DNA of 64,000 nt, taken from Cupriavidus metallidurans CH34. Lineage in GTDB: Bacteria; Pseudomonadota; Gammaproteobacteria; Burkholderiales; Burkholderiaceae. Shown one piece after another: positions 1,892-64,000 of this stretch (positions are counted from its first letter, which is position 1; each line of letters starts with the position of its first letter). Under the pieces are notes generated by a model. That model was not told the origin of the DNA. It made no database searches and worked only from the letters and a program-made list of their open reading frames with translations. The stretch spans positions 2,108,001 to 2,172,000 of the forward strand of contig NC_007973.1 of NCBI RefSeq assembly GCF_000196015.1. The letters are read 5' to 3'. The translations under genes and the position numbers were made by a program.

Positions 1892-4800
1892 TCAGTTCGT
1901 CATCACCCCTTGCCCGCCTTCCGGGGCCCGGACACGGAACCACGCCGCGTACAGCGCGGGCAGGAACAACAGCGTCAGCACCGTGGCGACGATCAGGCCA
2001 CCCATGATCGCGGCGGCCATTGGCCCCCAGAACGTCGAACGCGACAGGGGAATCATCGCCAGCACCGCCGCTGCGGCGGTCAGCATGATCGGGCGGGCCC
2101 GACGCACCGCTGACTCGACGATGGCCTGCCACGGCGGAATGCCCGCCTTGATGTCCTGCTCGATCTGATCAACCAGAATCACCGAGTTGCGGATAATCAT
2201 ACCCAGCAGCGCGGTAATGCCCAACTGGGCGACAAACCCCATCGGCGCGTGCAGGAGCAACAGCGTCGCCGCCGCGCCAATCAGGCCCAGCGGGCCGGTC
2301 AGGAACACCATCACCGAACGCGAGAAGCTGTGCAACTGCAGCATCAGCAACGTGAAGATCAGGAAAATGCACAGCGGCAGTTGCGCGGCGATCGACGCGC
2401 CGGCCTTGCCGCTTTCCTCCTGCGCGCCCGCGATCGTGATGCGGTAACCGGGCGGCAGGCTGGCGCGGATCGCGTCGAGCTTCGGATCGATCTGCGCGGT
2501 CACGGTCGGCCCCTGGATGCCATCGACGATGTCGGACTGCACGGTAACGCCGAAGTCACGATTCTCGCGCCAGAGCACGCCGGGCTCTGATTTCAGCGTC
2601 ACGCGCGCCACCTGCGTCAGCGGCACGGCGCGGCCCGTGCTGGTCGGCACCAGGATGTTGTTCAGGTCCGACATCGTGTCGCGCTCGCTTTTCGGCGTGC
2701 GCATGACGATATCGATCAGCTTGTCCGCGTCGCGATACTGGCCAACCGGCACGCCAGTCAGCACCGCCTGCGTGGCGCGGGCAATCGCGTTGGTGGTCAC
2801 ACCGAGCGCACGTGCCTTGTCCTGGTCAAGCTCGAGACGCAGCATCTTCACGTTCTCGTTCCAGTTGTCGTTGACGCCGACCGTGTTCGGATTGGCTGCC
2901 ATGATGGCCCGCACCTGATCCGCCGCCTTGCGCACCCCGGCGGCATCCGGACCAATCACCCGGAACTGCACCGGGTAGGCAACGGGTGGCCCGTTTGGCA
3001 GCAGCTTCACACGGCCCCGGAGTTGTGGGAACTCCGCGGCCAGCACCTGCTCGATGCGCTTGCGCAGCACGTCGCGTTGCTCCGCGTCCGCCGGCATCAC
3101 GATCAGCTGCGCCACGTTCGACTGCGGCAGGATCTGGTCCAGCGGCAGGTAGAAGCGCGGCGCGCCAGTACCTATGAACGTGGTCAGGCTGCCCACGGCC
3201 TTGTCGCGCCGCATCGCCACTTCGAAGCGCTTGGCTTCGGCTTCGGTCTGCACAAAGCTCGTGCCTTCCGGCATCCAGAGTTCGACCATCAACTCGGGGC
3301 GGCTCGAATCGGGAAAGAACTGCTTCTCAACGAACTTGAACGCGAACAGCCCCAGCGCGAACGCCGCCAGCGTGACCACGATCACGGTCTTGCGCCACGT
3401 GACACACCAGTTCACCAGCGCACGGAAGCGCGCGTAGAACGGCGTATCGAACACCTCATGATGGCCGCCGTCGCTCGGGCGCGTCTTGAGCAGCAGATAG
3501 CCCAGGTACGGTGTGAAGTAGACCGCCGCCAGCCAGGACAACACCAATGCCAGCGCCGTCACGGCGAAGATCGCGAACGTGTATTCGCCAACGGTCGAGC
3601 GCGCCAGCCCCACGGGCAGGAAGCCCGCCGCCGTAATCAGCGTGCCGGTCAGCATCGGCATTGCCGTGGACGTGTAGGCAAACGTGGCGGCCTCCATCTT
3701 GGAGAAGCCTTCCTCCAGCTTGCGCACCATCATTTCGACGGCGATGATCGCGTCGTCCACCAGCAGGCCCAGCGCGATGATCAGCGCGCCAAGCGATATC
3801 TTGTGGAGCCCGATGCCGAATATGTTCATGAACAGGAACGTCACGGCCAGCACCAGCGGAATCGTCAGCGCCACCACGAGTCCGGGACGTACGTCGAGCC
3901 GTAACGGCCGCGTATGGAGCCCGAGCGAGACGAAGCTCACACCCAGCACGATCACAACGGCCTCGATCAGCACCCGCACGAACTCCCCCACCGAGTGCTT
4001 CACGGCCTGCGGCTGATCCTGGACCTGATCCATCTCGATACCGACCGGCAACTGGTTGCGCAGGCCATCGACCACGCGGCGCAGTTCCTTGCCCAGCGCG
4101 ATGATGTCCCCGCCCTTCTCCATCGAAATACCCAGGCCGATCACATCCTTGCCGTTGAAACGCATCCGGCTCACCGGAGGATCGACATACCCGCGATAGA
4201 CGTGCGCGATGTCGCCCAGCCGAATGTTGGCGATGCCGTTCGGCCCGCGCAGGACCAGGTTTTTCAGGTCTTCCACCCCGCCAAGCTGCCCGGTGATGCG
4301 GATCTGCAGGTTGTCGGTTGGCGTCACGAGGACACCACTACCGGTGGGATTGTTCTGCTCGGCAATCTGGTTGGCGATCGCATTGATGTCCAGCCCAAGC
4401 TGCGCGAAGCGTGCCTGATTGAACTCGACATAGAGCTTCTCGTCCTGCAGCCCCAGCAGGGACACCTTGGCCACGGCGGGGATGCGCAGCATCTCCTGCC
4501 GCACGAGATCCGCATACTCGCGCAGTTCCTTGTAAGTGAAGCCGTCGGCCGACAGCGCATAGATCGAGCCGTACACATCGCCGAACTCATCATTGAAGAA
4601 CGGCCCACGCACGCCCTGTGGCAGCGTCGGCTGGATGTCGCCAATCTTCTTGCGCACCGTGTACCAGATCTGCGCAGTGTCCTTGGCCGGCGCGTTGTCG
4701 GCCAGCTGGAAGATCACCGTGGTCTCGCCCGGCTTCGAGAAGCTGCGGATCTTGTCCGCGTATGGCACTTCCTGAAGCTGCCGTTCGATCTTGTCGGTCA

Positions 4801-9482: not shown

Positions 9483-10205
9483 ATGGAAAATACCAGCCAC
9501 AAGATTCTCGTCGTGGACGACGACCCGCGCCTGCGCGATCTTCTACGCCGCTATCTCGGCGAGCAGGGCTTCACGGTCCTCGTGGCGGAAAACGCCACGG
9601 CCATGAATAAGCTCTGGCTGCGCGAGCGTTTCGACCTGCTGGTGCTGGACCTGATGATGCCGGGCGAGGACGGCCTTTCCATCTGCCGCCGCCTGCGAGG
9701 CGCCAACGACCAGACCCCGATCATCATGCTCACCGCCAAGGGTGAGGACGTGGACCGTATCGTCGGCCTGGAAATGGGCGCGGACGACTATCTGCCCAAG
9801 CCCTTCAACCCGCGTGAACTGATCGCGCGGATTCACGCCGTGCTGCGCCGCAAGGGTCCCGCCGAAGTGCCTGGCGCCCCGTCGGAAACCCCGGAAACGT
9901 TCGCCTTCGGCGATTTCGTACTCAACCTGGCCACGCGTACGCTGACCAAGAACGACGAGGAAATCACGCTCACCACGGGCGAGTTCTCGGTGCTCAAGGT
10001 TTTCGCGCGCCACCCACGCCAGCCGCTCTCGCGCGAAAAGCTCATGGAAATGGCACGCGGCCGCGAGTACGAAGTCTTCGACCGCAGCCTGGACGTGCAG
10101 ATTTCTCGCCTGCGCAAGCTGATCGAGCCGGATCCGGGTAACCCGCGCTTCATCCAGACGGTCTGGGGCCTGGGTTATGTCTTTATCCCCGATGGCGTGA
10201 AGTAA
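9483..10205 (+). CDS. ompR: OmpR-family two-component response regulator
   Basis: A 240-residue response regulator with receiver domain (residues 1-125) and winged-helix DNA-binding domain (about 140-236). Phosphoacceptor is D56 in LLVLDLMMPG; the acidic pocket is VVDDDPR (about 11-17) and the conserved lysine is in YLPKPFNP. The output domain has the OmpR signature EVFDRSLDVQISRLRKLIE and the GLGYVF ending. It pairs with the kinase gene 26 bases downstream. Sequence features match OmpR and the Bordetella RisA orthologue. It likely controls envelope, osmotic or porin genes. Confidence 0.93.
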   Translation: MENTSHKILVVDDDPRLRDLLRRYLGEQGFTVLVAENATAMNKLWLRERFDLLVLDLMMPGEDGLSICRRLRGANDQTPIIMLTAKGEDVDRIVGLEMGADDYLPKPFNPRELIARIHAVLRRKGPAEVPGAPSETPETFAFGDFVLNLATRTLTKNDEEITLTTGEFSVLKVFARHPRQPLSREKLMEMARGREYEVFDRSLDVQISRLRKLIEPDPGNPRFIQTVWGLGYVFIPDGVK

Positions 10206-10231
10206 TTCCGGTCGCACCTCACAGCTTCATC

Positions 10232-11581
10232 GTGGCGACCGCTCTCGGCCGTACCGCAACGCGGTTCTTTGGTTCGCTCTTCTGGCGAACCTTCATGCTG
10301 ATCGCCCTGTTGCTGGCGATCTCGCTGGGTATCTGGTTCCAGAGCTACCGGCTCTTCGAACGCGCGCCGCGTGCCCAGCAGATCGCCATGCAGGTAGTCA
10401 GCGTGGTCAAGCTCACCCGCGCGGCCCTGCTCTACTCGGACCCGGCTCGTCGCCGGTTCCTTCTGCTCGACCTCGTCCAGAACGAGGGCATCAAGGTCTA
10501 TCCGCGCGAGAAGGACGATGACTTCGCCGCGCCCACGGCCAACCCGTTCCTGACACAACTCGTGCAACAGGAGATTCGCGGCCGCCTGGGCGAAGACACG
10601 GTCATCGCGACCACGGTCAACGACATTCCCGGCGTGTGGGTCAGCTTCGAAATCGAAGGCGACGACTACTGGGTCGCCATCAGCCCAGAACGATTCGAGC
10701 GCGTGCCAGGCATCCAGTGGCTCTGGTGGAGTATCGCGGCGCTGATGCTGTCGATCATCGGCGCGGCATTCATCACCGCGCGCGTCAACTATCCGCTCAA
10801 ACGACTGGCCAACGCCGCGCGCCAGATCGGGTCCGGTGGCGATCCGCCGCCGCTGCGCGAACAGGGCGCAAGCGAAGTGGCGCAGGCCAACCGCAGCTTC
10901 AACCAGATGGTGCACGACCTGCGTCAGCTCGATGACGACCGTGTAGTGATGCTGGCAGGTATCTCGCACGATCTGCGCACGCCGCTCACCCGCCTGCGGC
11001 TGGAAACCGAAATGTCCCCCGTGGACAACGTCACCCGCGACGCGATGATCGCCGACATCGAACAGATGGACGCGATCATCGGCCAGTTCCTGAACTATGC
11101 CCGGCCAGGGCAGGAAGTCGTGGAACCGGTCGATCTGTCGACGCTCGTGCAAGAGTCCGTCGGCGTCTATGCCGCGCATGACGACGTGCGCATCCACGTG
11201 CGATCGAACGGCCCGGTGATGGCCATGGCCAACCGCATGGAAATCCAGCGCATTCTCGACAACCTCGTGGAGAACGCGCGGCGCTACGCCAAGGACGAAG
11301 AGACCGGCATGGCCGAAGTGGAGATCTCCACGCGCGTCGAGGACAAGGATGCGTTGCTGGTAGTGGCGGACAACGGCATGGGCGTGCCAGACGAAGAACT
11401 GTCGCTGCTGACGCGCCCGTTCTACCGGCTCGACGCCGCCCGCAGCGAGGCCAAGGGGGCCGGCCTGGGCATGTCCATCGTCAACCGCATCCTGCAGCGC
11501 AACGGCGGCAGGCTGGTCCTTGCCAACCGTCCGGCGCCCAAGTCCGGGCTGGTGGTCAGCGCAATCTTCCGGCGCGCCTGA
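10232..11581 (+). CDS. envZ: EnvZ/RisS-type sensor histidine kinase
   Basis: A 449-residue membrane histidine kinase. Two transmembrane helices (about 21-37 and 163-181) flank a periplasmic sensor of about 125 residues; HAMP, dimerisation and ATPase domains follow. Autophosphorylation site is H246 in LAGISHDLRTPLTRLRLETE; the N box (NLVENARRYA), G1 box (VADNGMGVP) and G2 box (GAGLGMSIV) are intact. It should phosphorylate the OmpR-like regulator encoded just upstream. Annotated start is GTG 10232 and no strong Shine-Dalgarno sequence is seen. Confidence 0.92.
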   Translation: MATALGRTATRFFGSLFWRTFMLIALLLAISLGIWFQSYRLFERAPRAQQIAMQVVSVVKLTRAALLYSDPARRRFLLLDLVQNEGIKVYPREKDDDFAAPTANPFLTQLVQQEIRGRLGEDTVIATTVNDIPGVWVSFEIEGDDYWVAISPERFERVPGIQWLWWSIAALMLSIIGAAFITARVNYPLKRLANAARQIGSGGDPPPLREQGASEVAQANRSFNQMVHDLRQLDDDRVVMLAGISHDLRTPLTRLRLETEMSPVDNVTRDAMIADIEQMDAIIGQFLNYARPGQEVVEPVDLSTLVQESVGVYAAHDDVRIHVRSNGPVMAMANRMEIQRILDNLVENARRYAKDEETGMAEVEISTRVEDKDALLVVADNGMGVPDEELSLLTRPFYRLDAARSEAKGAGLGMSIVNRILQRNGGRLVLANRPAPKSGLVVSAIFRRA

Positions 11582-59319: not shown

Positions 59320-59365
59320 TGGTTGCGGGGGCAGGACTTGAACCTGCGACCTTCGGGTTATGAGC
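59320..59365 (-). other. 3' fragment of tRNA-fMet (island attachment site)
   Basis: The minus strand reads GCTCATAACCCGAAGG, then TCGCAGGTTCAAGTCC and TGCCCCCGCAACCA: the anticodon loop (CAT), T arm and acceptor 3' end of initiator tRNA-Met. The 5' half is absent; sequence beyond the anticodon (TTTTCGC on the minus strand) is unrelated. Such 46-nt remnants are what tyrosine integrases leave at the island end away from the intact tRNA. The integrase gene begins 140 bases away. The intact tRNA-fMet should lie further right, outside the window. Confidence 0.85.
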
Positions 59366-59493: not shown

Positions 59494-60398
59494 GGAGCTA
59501 TAGACATGCAGAGGGCCCGAAACCGGGTAGATATCGACCGCGACTTCCTGCGCGGCCTGAGTGCGACCGGCGCGCACCAAGAGTACGCCGACTCGACCCT
59601 GAGCGGCTTTGGCGTGCGTGTCACGCCTGCCGGCGCCATCCAATACACGCTGCGTTACCGCAAGCCTGACGGCAAGTTCGGGCGCACGAAGATAGGCACC
59701 TATCCCGCCATGACCGCCACGCAGGCGCGTAAGGCGGCAAAAGACCAACTGGAGTTGACCGACCGCAAGGGGGATGCCCTGTCGGTGCTGGCCGAGCGCC
59801 GAAAGAAGCGCGACGACGCCCACCGCATTGCCGGGGTGCCGACCTTGCGCACCTTTCTGGACGGGGACTATACGGATTGGCTGATAACCAACCGCAAGAC
59901 CGGCGCCGACTTGGCCGACCTCATCCGCATGGCGTTTGCCGGCCTGCTGGACAAGCGCCTGGACGATGTGACCCCGTGGGCGCTGGAGCGCTGGAAGCAC
60001 GACGAGGCGAAAAAAGGCAATGTCGCGGCGACGGCGGCGCGCAAGCTGACCGCGCTGCAAGGGCTCTACCGCGTCGCCATGCTGGCCGGTCACGTCTCGG
60101 AAAACCCGGTAAAGGGTGTCGAATATGACGGCACGAGCGAAGAGGTGGTGCGCTTCCTGTCGCCGGACGAGCGCGCGCGCCTATATATAGCACTCGCCGC
60201 CCGGGAAGACGAAATGCGCGACGCCCGCGACCGCGCGAACGACCACCGCAACGTGCGCCGCCGCCCGCTCATGCCGAGCCTGCGCGATGCTGCCTTTACC
60301 GACTACCTGCGCCCCGCCGTGCTGGTCAGCCTGAATTGTGCGTGAGCACGAGATTCGATGGATGCGCGAGCACGGTAATTGATGGTCGGCTGCGGCAC

Positions 60399-60409
60399 CG
60401 TCCATCACC
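60399..60409 (+). repeat. CGTCCATCACC end repeat of the transposon
   Basis: The 11-mer CGTCCATCACC occurs at 60399-60409 near the left end and again at 63791-63801 near the right end, with a third, inverted, partial copy (CTGATGGACG, 60434-60443). Multiple subterminal motifs are typical transposase-binding sites in Mu/Tn7-like ends. Confidence 0.7.
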
Positions 60410-60488
60410 AATGTTGCGTGCCGTCGGGCAACGCTGATGGACGTGGCGATCTATCGCGGTGGACCGGATGCGGAGCAGCGGCACTGAT

Positions 60489-60519
60489 GTAACAAGGGGC
60501 CCGGCGGGCCCCTTGTTAC
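60489..60519 (-). terminator. Perfect 14-bp hairpin ending the transposon operon
   Basis: GTAACAAGGGGCCC and GGGCCCCTTGTTAC form a perfect stem with a three-base loop, five bases after the stop codon of the last transposon gene. No long T-run follows. Confidence 0.75.
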
Positions 60520-60523
60520 TGGA

Positions 60524-60796
60524 TCAGAAGTCGTTATCTGCGAGATCGCCAAGGCCATCAGGATGCTCCTGCCGATCTTCGGCCAGCCACTGGGCCAAGG
60601 CCAATTGATAGTGAGCATGCAGACGGTCGCGCAGATCGTCGAGCAATTCGATCACAGCCCAGGCCTGCGCGGGCGTCCAGTTGGCATCAATGAGCAGGGG
60701 CAGCCCCTGGGCGATGCCGGATGGCTGGTGGAAGGTCATGGTGATGTCGTCGTTGTGTTGATGGACGTGGCGGCGATGGCCAACGGCGCCACTCAC
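60524..60796 (-). CDS. Small transposon protein
   Basis: A 90-residue reading from GTG 60796, which overlaps the ATPase stop codon (GTGA) and so is probably coupled. A later ATG (60739) would give 71 residues. The likely folded part is acidic and helical (NWTPAQAWAVIELLDDLRDR, then LHAHYQLALAQWLAEDRQEH). It is the last gene of the transposon operon. No known domain; a target-selection or assembly accessory role is possible but unproven. Confidence 0.65.
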   Translation of the reverse strand: MSGAVGHRRHVHQHNDDITMTFHQPSGIAQGLPLLIDANWTPAQAWAVIELLDDLRDRLHAHYQLALAQWLAEDRQEHPDGLGDLADNDF

Positions 60797-61626
60797 CGCC
60801 TGGCGCGGCGGTTCAGGGTTGCGCTGTAGGTTTCCAGATAGAGCTTCTCGTCGATCTGCGGTAGCTCCCGCTGCGCGGCCTGGGCCAGAAGCTCGCCCGC
60901 CAGGTTCATCAGGATGCGGTAATTGCCGGCGGCGTGCTCACACAGGGTCTGGCGCAATGGCATGGTCATCAGGGTGGCGTTGCCGGCGGCGGCCAGCAAG
61001 TGGTCCAGGCAGGCCTGCAGCTCGTCGATGCTCGCACTCTCCAGCGCCAGACGGCAGCGGATGCGGCTGCCCAGCGGGATCAGGTCCTCGCGGCTGAACT
61101 TCTCCGGCAGGCGAGCGTCGCCGGCAAGCACCACGCACAGCAGCAATTGCGAGTCGAAGCGTGCCTGTGCGAGCAGGCGCAGTTCCGAGAGGGCTGGCAC
61201 CGCCATCTCCTGGGCTTCATCGATGAGCAGCACGCAGCGGCGGCGGCTGGCCTCCATGTGGGTGAGCCAGCGCTCGCGCAGCGCCTTGAAGCCGCCCCAG
61301 CGATTGTGGGGCTTGAGCGGTACGGTAAAGATGTCGCTGAGCTCGCGATAGAAGTCCGCCAGATTGCTCTGTGGGTGAGCGATCGAGCCGACCATCAGAT
61401 CGGGGACGCGCATGAGGCGCTGATGGAGCAGGCGCAGCGTGACGCTCTTGCCGCAACCGGGGTCGCCATGCACCATGGCGAAGCCGCCTTCGCGGGCCAT
61501 ACCGTTCTCAATGCGCCAGCAGAAGTGATCGAGCTTGGGTGGCACGAACACGGCCTCGACGGGGATGTCCTGGGCGAAGGGGTTGAACTTCAGACCGTAC
61601 AAGGCCAGCAGGTTGGGTTGATTCAT
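60793..61626 (-). CDS. AAA+ ATPase of the transposon (GspA/ExeA-, TniB/TnsC-like)
   Basis: A 277-residue P-loop ATPase. Walker A is MVHGDPGCGKSVTLRLL and Walker B RRCVLLIDEAQEM; a sensor-like arginine region follows (GSRIRCRLALESAS). The start LLALYGLKFNPFAQDIP is characteristic of the ExeA/GspA ATPases found with transposons. In Mu and Tn7 systems such proteins choose target DNA and activate the transposase; this role is inferred. ATG 61626 overlaps the transposase stop codon by four bases. Confidence 0.88.
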   Translation of the reverse strand: MNQPNLLALYGLKFNPFAQDIPVEAVFVPPKLDHFCWRIENGMAREGGFAMVHGDPGCGKSVTLRLLHQRLMRVPDLMVGSIAHPQSNLADFYRELSDIFTVPLKPHNRWGGFKALRERWLTHMEASRRRCVLLIDEAQEMAVPALSELRLLAQARFDSQLLLCVVLAGDARLPEKFSREDLIPLGSRIRCRLALESASIDELQACLDHLLAAAGNATLMTMPLRQTLCEHAAGNYRILMNLAGELLAQAAQRELPQIDEKLYLETYSATLNRRARR

Positions 61627-63062
61627 AGCTTGGTGGGTGCGGGTGGGAGATAGGCCGGCGGCAGGCCGGTGGCGGCGTGTTCGGCGAGCAACTGACGCAG
61701 CAGCGGCGCAGTGCCAGCCTGCGCGGGTTCCTCGTTAGCAGGCGAGGCACCCTTGGCCGTGAGATGCGCGCGCCGTGCGTCGGCATTGGCAGACTTGTCC
61801 AGCGGGAACACGGCGGCCAGGATCGCGCCGATGCGCGCATCGATCAGGTCGACTTGGGAGAGATCCCAGCGCGCGTAGCTCAGGCAGACTTGCTCGAGGT
61901 GGCGGTAAGCGCCGGGGATCTCGAAGCGCACGCCGTCCAACGTGAAGGTGCCGTCGGTTCTGCGCTGGCGGCGATGCTGGCGGATACGGAAGGCCCGGCG
62001 CAAGGCCAGCGCCTCGGGACTGGGGCGCGAGACGTCGGCACAGGACAGGTAGCGCTGCAGAGGCGTCGCCTCGAGTTCGGCGTGTTCCTTGTGGTGGTAT
62101 TCCTGCTCGACCCAGGCCTGCGTGGCGAGGTTCAATTGCTCCAGGGTGAGGTGCGACTCACCTTCGAGCATGGCCATCAGCCGGGACTCGAGCTGTCCCC
62201 AGAAGCGTTCCTGCTTGGCATTCTGGTATGGGCTGTAGGGCAAGGTAGTCTGGTGCAGGATGCCCAGACTGGCCAGCCCCTCGACGAACTCGTCGGCCAT
62301 CATGGCTGCGCCGTTATCGGTCATGATGGCCCGCGGCAGCCCTCGCTTCATGATCGCCTGCGAGACGCCGTGCACCAGCGAGGCAGTGGTCTCGTCGAGG
62401 AACCACTGCAGGTGGCAGACCAGCCGCGAATGGTCGTCCATAATGCAGAGCAGCAGCGGCTTGTGCCACTGCCCATCGGGGGTGAGCACCTTGCGCGAAC
62501 CATGGTGGAAGTCCAGGTGCCAGAGCGCGGCCACGTGGTCGACCTCGTAGCTACGCACCTCGCGTGCCTCGCGGCGAGCCGCAGCAGCGATGGCCCCATC
62601 CGTGCTCGAGCGCGGGGTTGGCTTGCGCACCAGACCCTGCGCCTTCAGATACCGGCACACCGTGGTGTAGGACGGCAGCGTGTCCGGGCCATCCTTGGTC
62701 GCGACGCGCAGGTTGTCGTAATGCAACTGCATGGTCCAGCCGGGGTGCTGACGGTACTGCTCGACCAGCGCTTCGATGATGGCTGGGCTCAGACTGACGA
62801 AGTGGCCGCAATCGTCGCGCAGTCGGTTCTTGAGTTGATCGACCGGATCCTGGACGTGACGGGCCCGGTAATACCAGCGTTCGATGGAAGACGCGCCGAA
62901 CTGAACGTCGGCGCCGGTGATGGGGTGCCGCCAGACCTTGGCGGCCAGTGCCTGGAACGCTTGCTGCAATTCTCCTTTGGCAGGCGGCGAAGCCAGCAAA
63001 GGGCCAATGACCGAGAAGCGCAAGCGCGCCCATCGGTTGCGATGATCAATCGATAGTGACAT
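61623..63062 (-). CDS. DDE-type (rve/Mu-like) transposase
   Basis: A 479-residue transposase. N-terminal DNA-binding helices (to about 150) are followed by an integrase core with catalytic D in ALWHLDFHHGSRKV, D in RAIMTDNGAAMM and E in NAKQERFWGQLESRL. A beta-barrel-like C-terminal domain (GTFTLDGVRFEIPGAYRHLE) follows, as in MuA/TniA-type proteins. GGAG precedes ATG 63062. It should cut the TG...CA ends; the catalytic triad is intact, so the element may still be mobile. Confidence 0.92.
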   Translation of the reverse strand: MSLSIDHRNRWARLRFSVIGPLLASPPAKGELQQAFQALAAKVWRHPITGADVQFGASSIERWYYRARHVQDPVDQLKNRLRDDCGHFVSLSPAIIEALVEQYRQHPGWTMQLHYDNLRVATKDGPDTLPSYTTVCRYLKAQGLVRKPTPRSSTDGAIAAAARREAREVRSYEVDHVAALWHLDFHHGSRKVLTPDGQWHKPLLLCIMDDHSRLVCHLQWFLDETTASLVHGVSQAIMKRGLPRAIMTDNGAAMMADEFVEGLASLGILHQTTLPYSPYQNAKQERFWGQLESRLMAMLEGESHLTLEQLNLATQAWVEQEYHHKEHAELEATPLQRYLSCADVSRPSPEALALRRAFRIRQHRRQRRTDGTFTLDGVRFEIPGAYRHLEQVCLSYARWDLSQVDLIDARIGAILAAVFPLDKSANADARRAHLTAKGASPANEEPAQAGTAPLLRQLLAEHAATGLPPAYLPPAPTKL

Positions 63063-63173
63063 GACTCTCCGTTGGGGGGATAACGGGAGCAGGCTACGGG
63101 CAGTGCGGGTGACCCGCCATCGACATGTTCTGCGGGAGATTCCCCTATCTGGCGCATCCCTCAGCCAGCGTGG

Positions 63174-63743
63174 TCAGGCCGGGCCCAGCAGCAGAAGCAA
63201 CACCGCGGCCAGACGCTCGTCTTCGCTGTCGTGCTCGACCGATTGCAGCAGGCAGTCGGGATAGATGAACGGCTCGGGCGTTGGCGGGATGAGGCCACGC
63301 AGCCACCGACCGACGGGGGTCTTGGGGAAGGTCTCGGTCCACCACTGACGCCAGCGCTTGAGCGTGGCCCAACTGATCGCCGGCAGGCCGTCCAGGCAGG
63401 CGCCAGTGGCACGGCTCGATCGCAGTACCAGGACAATGGCCAGCCAGACACGCCGGCCGAGAAAGCGCACCGAATCGGGCGTCATGCGTTTGCGGCATCC
63501 GGCACAGCACAGGCTCAGGCGCGTATTGCAGTCCGGGTGTGCTGCCGGTGGGCATCCGCGCGGCTTACGCGGATAGTTGGCACTGTGCAGCACAGAGCCG
63601 CAATGGCAGCAGCCCCTGTCTCGCGCCACCTTCATCAAGTCTTCGTCGATCCGGCGCAACAGGGCAAAAAACGCTGGCGTTTGTAGCAAGGCATGGCACA
63701 CTGCTGAGGTCTCCTTCATTGCTCGACACAATAAAGGCGACAT
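63174..63743 (-). CDS. Zinc-ribbon protein of the transposon
   Basis: A 189-residue protein. An N-terminal helix is followed by a cysteine-rich region (RGCCHCGSVLHSANYPRKPR, then a second cluster LSLCCAGCRKRMTPDSVRFL), likely binding one or two zinc ions, then a helical part with KRWRQWWTETFPKTPVGRW. ATG 63743 has a purine-rich Shine-Dalgarno motif; ATG 63719 is an alternative. It is the first gene of the element, 111 bases before the transposase. The zinc clusters might bind end or target DNA, as TniQ/TnsD do, but this is inference. Confidence 0.75.
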   Translation of the reverse strand: MSPLLCRAMKETSAVCHALLQTPAFFALLRRIDEDLMKVARDRGCCHCGSVLHSANYPRKPRGCPPAAHPDCNTRLSLCCAGCRKRMTPDSVRFLGRRVWLAIVLVLRSSRATGACLDGLPAISWATLKRWRQWWTETFPKTPVGRWLRGLIPPTPEPFIYPDCLLQSVEHDSEDERLAAVLLLLLGPA

Positions 63744-63744
63744 C

Positions 63745-63781
63745 TTCCCTCAGGCGCGTGCATGCACGCTCCCTGAGGGAA
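63745..63781 (-). promoter_or_regulatory. Large palindrome covering the first transposon gene's ribosome-binding site
   Basis: TTCCCTCAGG ... CCTGAGGGAA with an inner GCGTGCA/TGCACGC palindrome gives arms of 17 pairs with only a small bulge. On the transcript from the minus strand, the downstream arm (CCTGAGGGAAG) contains the Shine-Dalgarno sequence for ATG 63743, so it would be locked in the stem in any RNA that includes both arms. Confidence 0.8.
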
Positions 63782-64000
63782 CCCCTCCAGCGTCCATCAC
63801 CGTTCTTGCTCAAATCCCCACGCTTTCGGCATCACGAAAGCTGCTTATGCACACTGAATACCGGCCTGCGCCGGGGCGAATTGCTGGCGCTGGAATGGAC
63901 GGACATTGATTTAGAGCACGCGGTGCTGACCGTGCGCCGCGCGACCGCGAAGGGCGACAGGACCCGCCGCGTGCCGCTGAACGCTGAAGCGCTCGATGCG

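Follow-up and report, generated by a model that had tools for sequence, protein, structure and literature searches.

How a transposon of only 3.5 kb that pairs a DDE transposase with an AAA+ ATPase moves, and into what kind of DNA it settles, is the question raised by one end of a 64,000-nucleotide stretch of the Cupriavidus metallidurans CH34 genome (NC_007973.1, positions 2,108,001 to 2,172,000; hereafter the window), where such an element interrupts a P4-type integrase gene. The element at 60337-63853 is Tn6049, which is already published, one of 12 known copies in this strain, and thus not new. We hold with considerable confidence a wider reading that joins two parts, namely, a Tn6049 copy that interrupts an island's integrase gene, where the island is probably CMGI-6, and an AAA+-assisted mode of transposition. 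Tn6049-related transposons have been discussed and tabulated before (Table S5 of PMC3414803), and the transposition module of Tn6049 could not be categorised in 2018 (PMC6210171); our searches of an open-access library listed no classification of it.

Identity and boundaries of the element

The complete element and its parts are as follows.

60337-63853, minus strand: Tn6049 copy, 3517 bp, with all genes on the minus strand
60331-60336, plus strand: left target duplication CTGAAT, read from the sequence
63854-63859, plus strand: right target duplication CTGAAT, read from the sequence
60337-60348, plus strand: left terminal inverted repeat TGTGCGTGAGCA, an end as in PMC4739549
63842-63853, minus strand: right terminal inverted repeat TGTGCATAAGCA (reverse complement), an end as in PMC4739549
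60339-60385, plus strand: two direct 23-bp repeats at the left end (60339-60361 and 60363-60385), 78% alike
60489-60519, no strand assigned: terminator-like 15-bp inverted repeat without mismatch, downstream of the operon
63174-63743, minus strand: zinc-ribbon-like protein, 189 amino acids, recognised by motif and conserved alongside the transposase
61623-63062, minus strand: DD35E transposase, 479 amino acids, with an IS481-like core and a conserved C-terminal tail
60793-61626, minus strand: AAA+ ATPase, published as gspA, 277 amino acids, AAA_22, MuB-like
60524-60796, minus strand: 90-amino-acid protein, whose gene is present at 13/80 related loci and belongs to Cupriavidus-type elements

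A sequence-only reading of this DNA had described the 6-bp CTGAAT duplication, matching inverted ends, and four minus-strand genes for a zinc ribbon, a DDE transposase, an AAA+ ATPase, and a small protein, all of which are present; the terminal repeats, read directly, are 12 bp long and imperfect, with 2 mismatches. Overlaps of 4 bp join the transposase gene to the AAA+ gene and the AAA+ gene to that of the 90-amino-acid protein. The 23-bp repeats are possibly two transposase-binding sites, and the 15-bp inverted repeat 3′ of the operon would serve as a terminator. The element had also been called free of cargo, which broadly holds, with the gene of the 90-amino-acid protein present at a minority of related loci.

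That this is an insertion element and not a chance arrangement follows from its recurrence, because the identical 3517 bp are present at 12 places in the CH34 genome, all at 100%, distributed 7/3/1/1 over four replicons. Table 3 of PMC2864759 gives Tn6049 the same 12 copies in CH34 with the same 7/3/1/1 distribution, and the 12-bp ends published in PMC4739549 are those found here. Copy number, distribution, and ends therefore identify the element, and the earlier guess of a Tn6049-type transposon, to be checked by alignment, proved an understatement: size, ends, genes, copy number, and distribution agree with the published Tn6049, with no sequence difference. The gspA-type ATPase gene, described as encoding a secretion-type ATPase in the Tn6049 literature (PMC2864759), is present and identical in 12/12 copies. 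In PLSDB, 16 records match the element, and 14 of these contain the whole of Tn6049 at ≥99.9%. Tn6049, with a 100% identical transposase, also occurs on a contig (L034) of a metagenome-assembled genome assigned to Candidatus Acetothermia, a distant phylum, where binning contamination is likely.

The interrupted integrase and its island

Three features describe the surroundings of the element.

59506-60336, plus strand: 5′ part of the gene for the P4-type integrase, encoding its arm- and core-binding parts, in an open frame from 59440 (GTG)
63860-64000, plus strand: beginning of the catalytic 3′ part of the integrase, which extends beyond the window to G000:C3:2172324
59320-59362, minus strand: 43-bp copy of the tRNA-Met 3′ end, found again 17.6 kb further along, within an intact tRNA-Met gene

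By frame arithmetic, removal of the element and one repeat restores the integrase frame exactly (...LVSLN / TGLRRGEL...), in agreement with the sequence-only reading. The same reading had the element nested in an island integrase with the DNA-binding part split from the catalytic arginine; the cut indeed falls between the arm- and core-binding parts and the catalytic part, just before TGLRRGEL, and by reading the catalytic motifs all lie in the 3′ part. The insertion very probably inactivated this integrase copy, so that the island would be unable to excise by its own enzyme and may have been immobilised.

The 43-bp tRNA-Met repeats are probably the att repeats of a 17.6-kb island, which is probably CMGI-6, since the distance between the repeats fits the 17,639 bp given for that island (PMC7019866). 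A second, identical Tn6049 copy lies just past the window (G000:C3:2174597-2178113), in the same island and inside the repeats, on the opposite strand and 2,743 bp away.

An empty-site allele had been suggested as a check, and a 338-nt query of the joined flanks was searched against 398 genomes of the family and against plasmids. Related integrases uninterrupted at the site were found; the allele of the same island was absent from these 398 genomes and from the plasmids. CH34 aside, 2 of the 398 genomes matched, at 72-73%, with both matches extending 12-21 nt beyond the junction. One lies within an uninterrupted 442-amino-acid integrase, and the other in a listed 202-amino-acid frame that starts shortly before the site and reads through it. 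Both are relatives and not the same island before insertion.

A MuB-like ATPase and a DD35E transposase

The earlier pairing of a DDE transposase with an AAA+ partner stands. The transposase residues D184, D249, and E285 are invariant in 25 relatives, with 35 residues between D249 and E285; the rve core is found in 25/25 transposases, and Mu-transpos_C, weakly, in 3/25. Profile comparisons connect it to a phage transposase PHROG (3e-39) and to the D3112 transposase (hhalign, 8e-7). AAA_22 is found in 15/15 ATPases and TniB in 1/15, weakly. The best solved relative of the ATPase profile is MuB (E 2e-5), followed by ShTnsC (0.037), and hhalign gives 1.7e-9 against MuB and 1.6e-4 (probability 51%) against D3112 B. 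An IstB-type ATPase, as in the IS21 family, is not indicated: for the window-identical ATPase, 12 Pfam families are listed at E up to 0.1, and IstB is not one of them. In the zinc-ribbon protein the CxxC motifs are conserved, and its profile has no match among solved structures. The 90-amino-acid protein is without a Pfam family at 1e-3; 28 homologues appeared in a large protein search, and those with an organism name come from Cupriavidus or Ralstonia.

Taken together, the module probably works like Mu or Tn7, that is, by AAA+-assisted DDE transposition, yet it is no member of Tn7. The DD35E transposase would bind repeated sites at the ends and join the ends to the target at staggered nicks. 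The MuB-like AAA+ ATPase would load onto target DNA and deliver or activate the transposase, and the zinc-ribbon protein may bind DNA and assist in choosing or preparing either the target or the ends. A role of the ATPase in target selection is likewise a prediction.

In Mu and D3112, as in Tn6049, a MuB-type AAA+ ATPase follows the DDE transposase, which here resembles D3112 A. Unlike these phages, of which Mu makes a 5-bp target duplication, the Tn6049 group has an extra zinc-ribbon gene, no phage genes, and duplications of 4-7 bp; a tblastn search of a phage collection with the transposase and the ATPase gave no match at 1e-5. Tn7, Tn5053, and Tn402 likewise combine a DDE transposase, an AAA+ partner, and a zinc-binding protein in one element, TniQ being zinc-binding, and Tn7-like transposons make a constant 5-bp target duplication. 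In the Tn6049 group, by contrast, duplications are not fixed at 5 bp, and two copies lie just 2.7 kb apart. Neither TnsA nor TniQ appears in the Pfam tables of the four element proteins or among the families listed for relatives (for the ATPases, 25 of 30 families). Of the earlier "Mu/Tn7-like" label, Mu-like therefore suits the ATPase, with its MuB matches, and Tn7-like survives as an analogy only. TGT/ACA ends are common to the Tn7/Tn5053/Tn402 and IS481 comparisons (PMC11406308).

Two more distant loci, on Geobacillus pGS18 and C. necator N-1 pBB2, have the same gene order, with a DUF6431 gene followed by the transposase and the ATPase. The pGS18 transposase and ATPase align over nearly their full length (E 6.5e-30 and 5.6e-16). 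The transposases of the two loci are 29-31% identical to that of Tn6049, and the zinc-ribbon protein compared with the two DUF6431 proteins is not significant.

Target duplications

Comparison of the duplications of all copies, as proposed earlier, gave exact repeats of 4-6 bp in 11/12 CH34 copies, each site with its own. CTGAAT, which the earlier reading had expected in relatives, is present here and belongs to this site only. The 12 identical CH34 copies show 4 bp once, 5 bp seven times, 6 bp three times, and none once; this last, L024 (G000:C3:3403805-3407321), has a 5-bp match if one extra G is allowed at the right end. Mismatched CH34 flank pairs yielded chance repeats of at least 4 bp in 0/132.

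Over 47 sites the length is 4 bp in 20, 5 bp in 12, 6 bp in 11, and 7 bp in 2, with no exact repeat in 2. At the 20 loci of the wider family, the presence of a repeat partly guided the choice of ends, and chance may therefore account for some short repeats (the weakest being L057, L075, L105, and L106). Left out were L056, L077, L081, L083, L088, L089, L093, and L101, with plausible ends and no exact repeat, and other loci with no convincing end pair.

Insertion targets

Recombinase or transposase genes are hit by 4/12 Tn6049 copies in CH34. Three lie in tyrosine recombinase genes (L027, L029, L030), and L031 lies in a Tn3-type transposase gene, called by DUF4158, which we take to be linked to Tn3 transposases. 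Four targets have no Pfam match (L023, L024, L026, L028), and L021 and L022 are a PIN gene and an MmgE/PrpD gene. L025 is a relaxase by eye and by its LPD7 domain, probably the relaxase insertion given for CMGI-5 (PMC7019866); L032, which had no domain scan, is the MFS (major facilitator superfamily) gene pbrU, a published Tn6049 insertion (PMC3384475).

The control comprised 27 other insertion sequence (IS) insertions in CH34 (9 IS1088, 10 ISRme3, 3 IS1086, 2 IS1087, and 3 other IS3), named after published copy numbers, with L209 not located. No recombinase or transposase gene is hit by any of the 27; a TniB gene is hit once, and 11 of the insertions gave no Pfam family; one-sided Fisher tests of 4/12 versus 0/27 give 0.006, or 0.025 when the TniB site is counted. 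The scans were unequal, the second piece of L031 having been scanned after the first was blank, and the controls on the longer piece only, with both pieces read by eye for 14; E limits for target genes were 1e-4 or 1e-3, varying between scans.

A wider set of 53 sites comprises 12 from CH34, 9 from plasmids, 12 from C. necator UYPR2.512 (6 with one end only), and 20 others; pieces of 31 were scanned, and the other 22 were judged by annotation or eye. A further site, L056 in an IS256-type gene, was excluded because it lacks a duplication. Seventeen of the 53 lie in recombinase or transposase genes. Pfam supports this for 14 (L027, L029, L030, L031, L043, L049, L054, L065, L075, L076, L086, L097, L103, and L105, of which L031, L065, and L076 through accessory domains only), and 3 were assigned by eye (L041, L048, L084). 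A preference for such genes is suggestive, a lead and not a result: the sample is small and was not judged blind, and the wider count has no matched control.

We lean toward an explanation by survival alone, whereby insertions last where they are harmless (islands, plasmids, dead insertion sequences) and nothing attracts them there. Tn6049 is indeed often island-associated (PMC2864759), and none of the 9 plasmid copies is in a recombinase or transposase gene by annotation and eye, their places being varied or unclear (9 of 16 records, one place each); the contrast with the other insertion sequences of CH34 speaks for attraction. A bolder proposal, which we rate as improbable, makes Tn6049 and its relatives a separate, widespread AAA+ transposon lineage whose zinc-ribbon protein is a TniQ-analogue target selector, steering insertions into recombinase, transposase, and relaxase genes and so parasitising and disabling rival mobile DNA.

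Stricter forms of targeting were rejected, as 36/53 sites are elsewhere or unclear, which excludes exclusive use of recombinase genes, and the positions at which the two P4-type integrases are interrupted differ, which excludes one fixed position. Strong local target immunity finds no support in the two copies 2,743 bp apart in the same island, which may have arrived in either order.

Relatives of the module

The transposase profile found relatives encoded at 218 loci in named genomes, of which the best 80 were kept; these are not independent, as C. necator UYPR2.512 alone supplies 12 and four are contigs with little besides the element. The transposase is present in 80/80, the zinc-ribbon and ATPase genes in 78/80 each, and the gene of the 90-amino-acid protein in 13/80. 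Close relatives, at E up to 1e-120, are present in 13/398 genomes of the family, 9/399 of an order sample, and 7/369 of a class sample, with CH34 in each count. Tn6049 is thus one of a widespread group of transposons with three core genes. At a more distant locus, in A. caldus, no ATPase gene is among the genes listed. Tn552 was rejected as the closest relative: the 271-amino-acid ATPase of pSAS, which is presumably that of Tn552, compared weakly, and no transposase gene is adjacent among those listed. At L076 (4171-8031) and L097 (1506-4927), Tn6049-like elements interrupt the transposase gene of another AAA+ transposon, a relative with TGTTACGTC ends, so that one AAA+ transposon is nested inside another in two different hosts. 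The island at L033 may be a phage-satellite remnant, judging by an HTH (helix-turn-helix)/AlpA-like regulator and an HK97-like major capsid protein recognised by eye (3035-3427 and 10074-11456).

Weighing the AAA+-assisted reading

Several observations weigh against the reading of Tn6049 as an AAA+-assisted transposon in CMGI-6. The hhalign match of the transposase to MuA is not significant, and that to a TniA fragment has E 0.0015 and a probability of 17%. The sole NCBIfam match of the ATPase, under the cut-off, is a PEP-CTERM-associated ATPase (E 2e-23), which places it also near non-transposon relatives. HTH_23 is found in 17/33 zinc-ribbon proteins at E up to 1 (best 6e-5), with no match in the window's own protein, and an HTH-like segment in the relatives is thus weakly supported. 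CMGI-6 holds an IS1087 copy according to PMC2864759, whereas the repeats here do not enclose the IS1087-like copy (L224, labelled by us), which is about 1.7 kb beyond them, a misfit. Lastly, the ATPase gene is cut at the same place in 11/12 copies of UYPR2.512, that is, at 11 loci, and therefore the element's own AAA+ protein may not be needed in cis.

At L039, which was read in detail, the cut falls at Walker B, and the insert has three tyrosine-recombinase-like frames, an RIT-like trio by eye. This Tn6049-like element spans 7,013 bp (L039, 4207-11219) and has ten sister loci (L040-L042, L044-L049, L065). Five UYPR2.512 loci with both ends visible have five different 4-bp duplications, and therefore the composite of element and RIT-like insert has moved. 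A Walker B site in comM is likewise recognised by TnsF, a target selector related to recombinases (PMC10293859).

These cut copies bear on the view, which we consider improbable, that Tn6049 is a one-protein IS481-type insertion sequence whose transposase alone moves it, the ATPase and zinc-ribbon protein being accessory passengers. The best NCBIfam model of the transposase is indeed IS481 (E 2e-37), and the IS481 family shares the rve catalytic core, TGT...ACA ends, and a variable duplication length (PMC10045372). Unlike that family, however, the transposase scores 129.3 bits, under the curated cut-off of 224, and the element has extra conserved genes, with zinc ribbon and ATPase each retained at nearly all of the 80 loci; the same gene order recurs on the Geobacillus plasmid with near-full-length matches of transposase and ATPase; and UYPR2.512 has one copy with an uncut ATPase frame (L043), so that help in trans is possible. 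AAA+-assisted transposition remains the reading we prefer.

What the element may tell us

The window holds an ordinary copy of a known element, and what is noteworthy is its uncategorised module, its zinc-ribbon protein, its variable stagger, and a possible taste for the genes of mobile elements. To the published element this analysis adds a testable placement for a module that the literature consulted left uncategorised. The module joins a DD35E transposase to an ATPase resembling MuB and to a zinc-ribbon protein that is conserved, and even the identical copies of CH34 differ in their duplications, from 4 to 6 bp. If the zinc-ribbon protein were a target selector, Tn6049 would provide a compact system, of 3.5 kb and three core genes, for target choice by AAA+ transposons, and might exemplify transposons that disarm mobile elements other than themselves.

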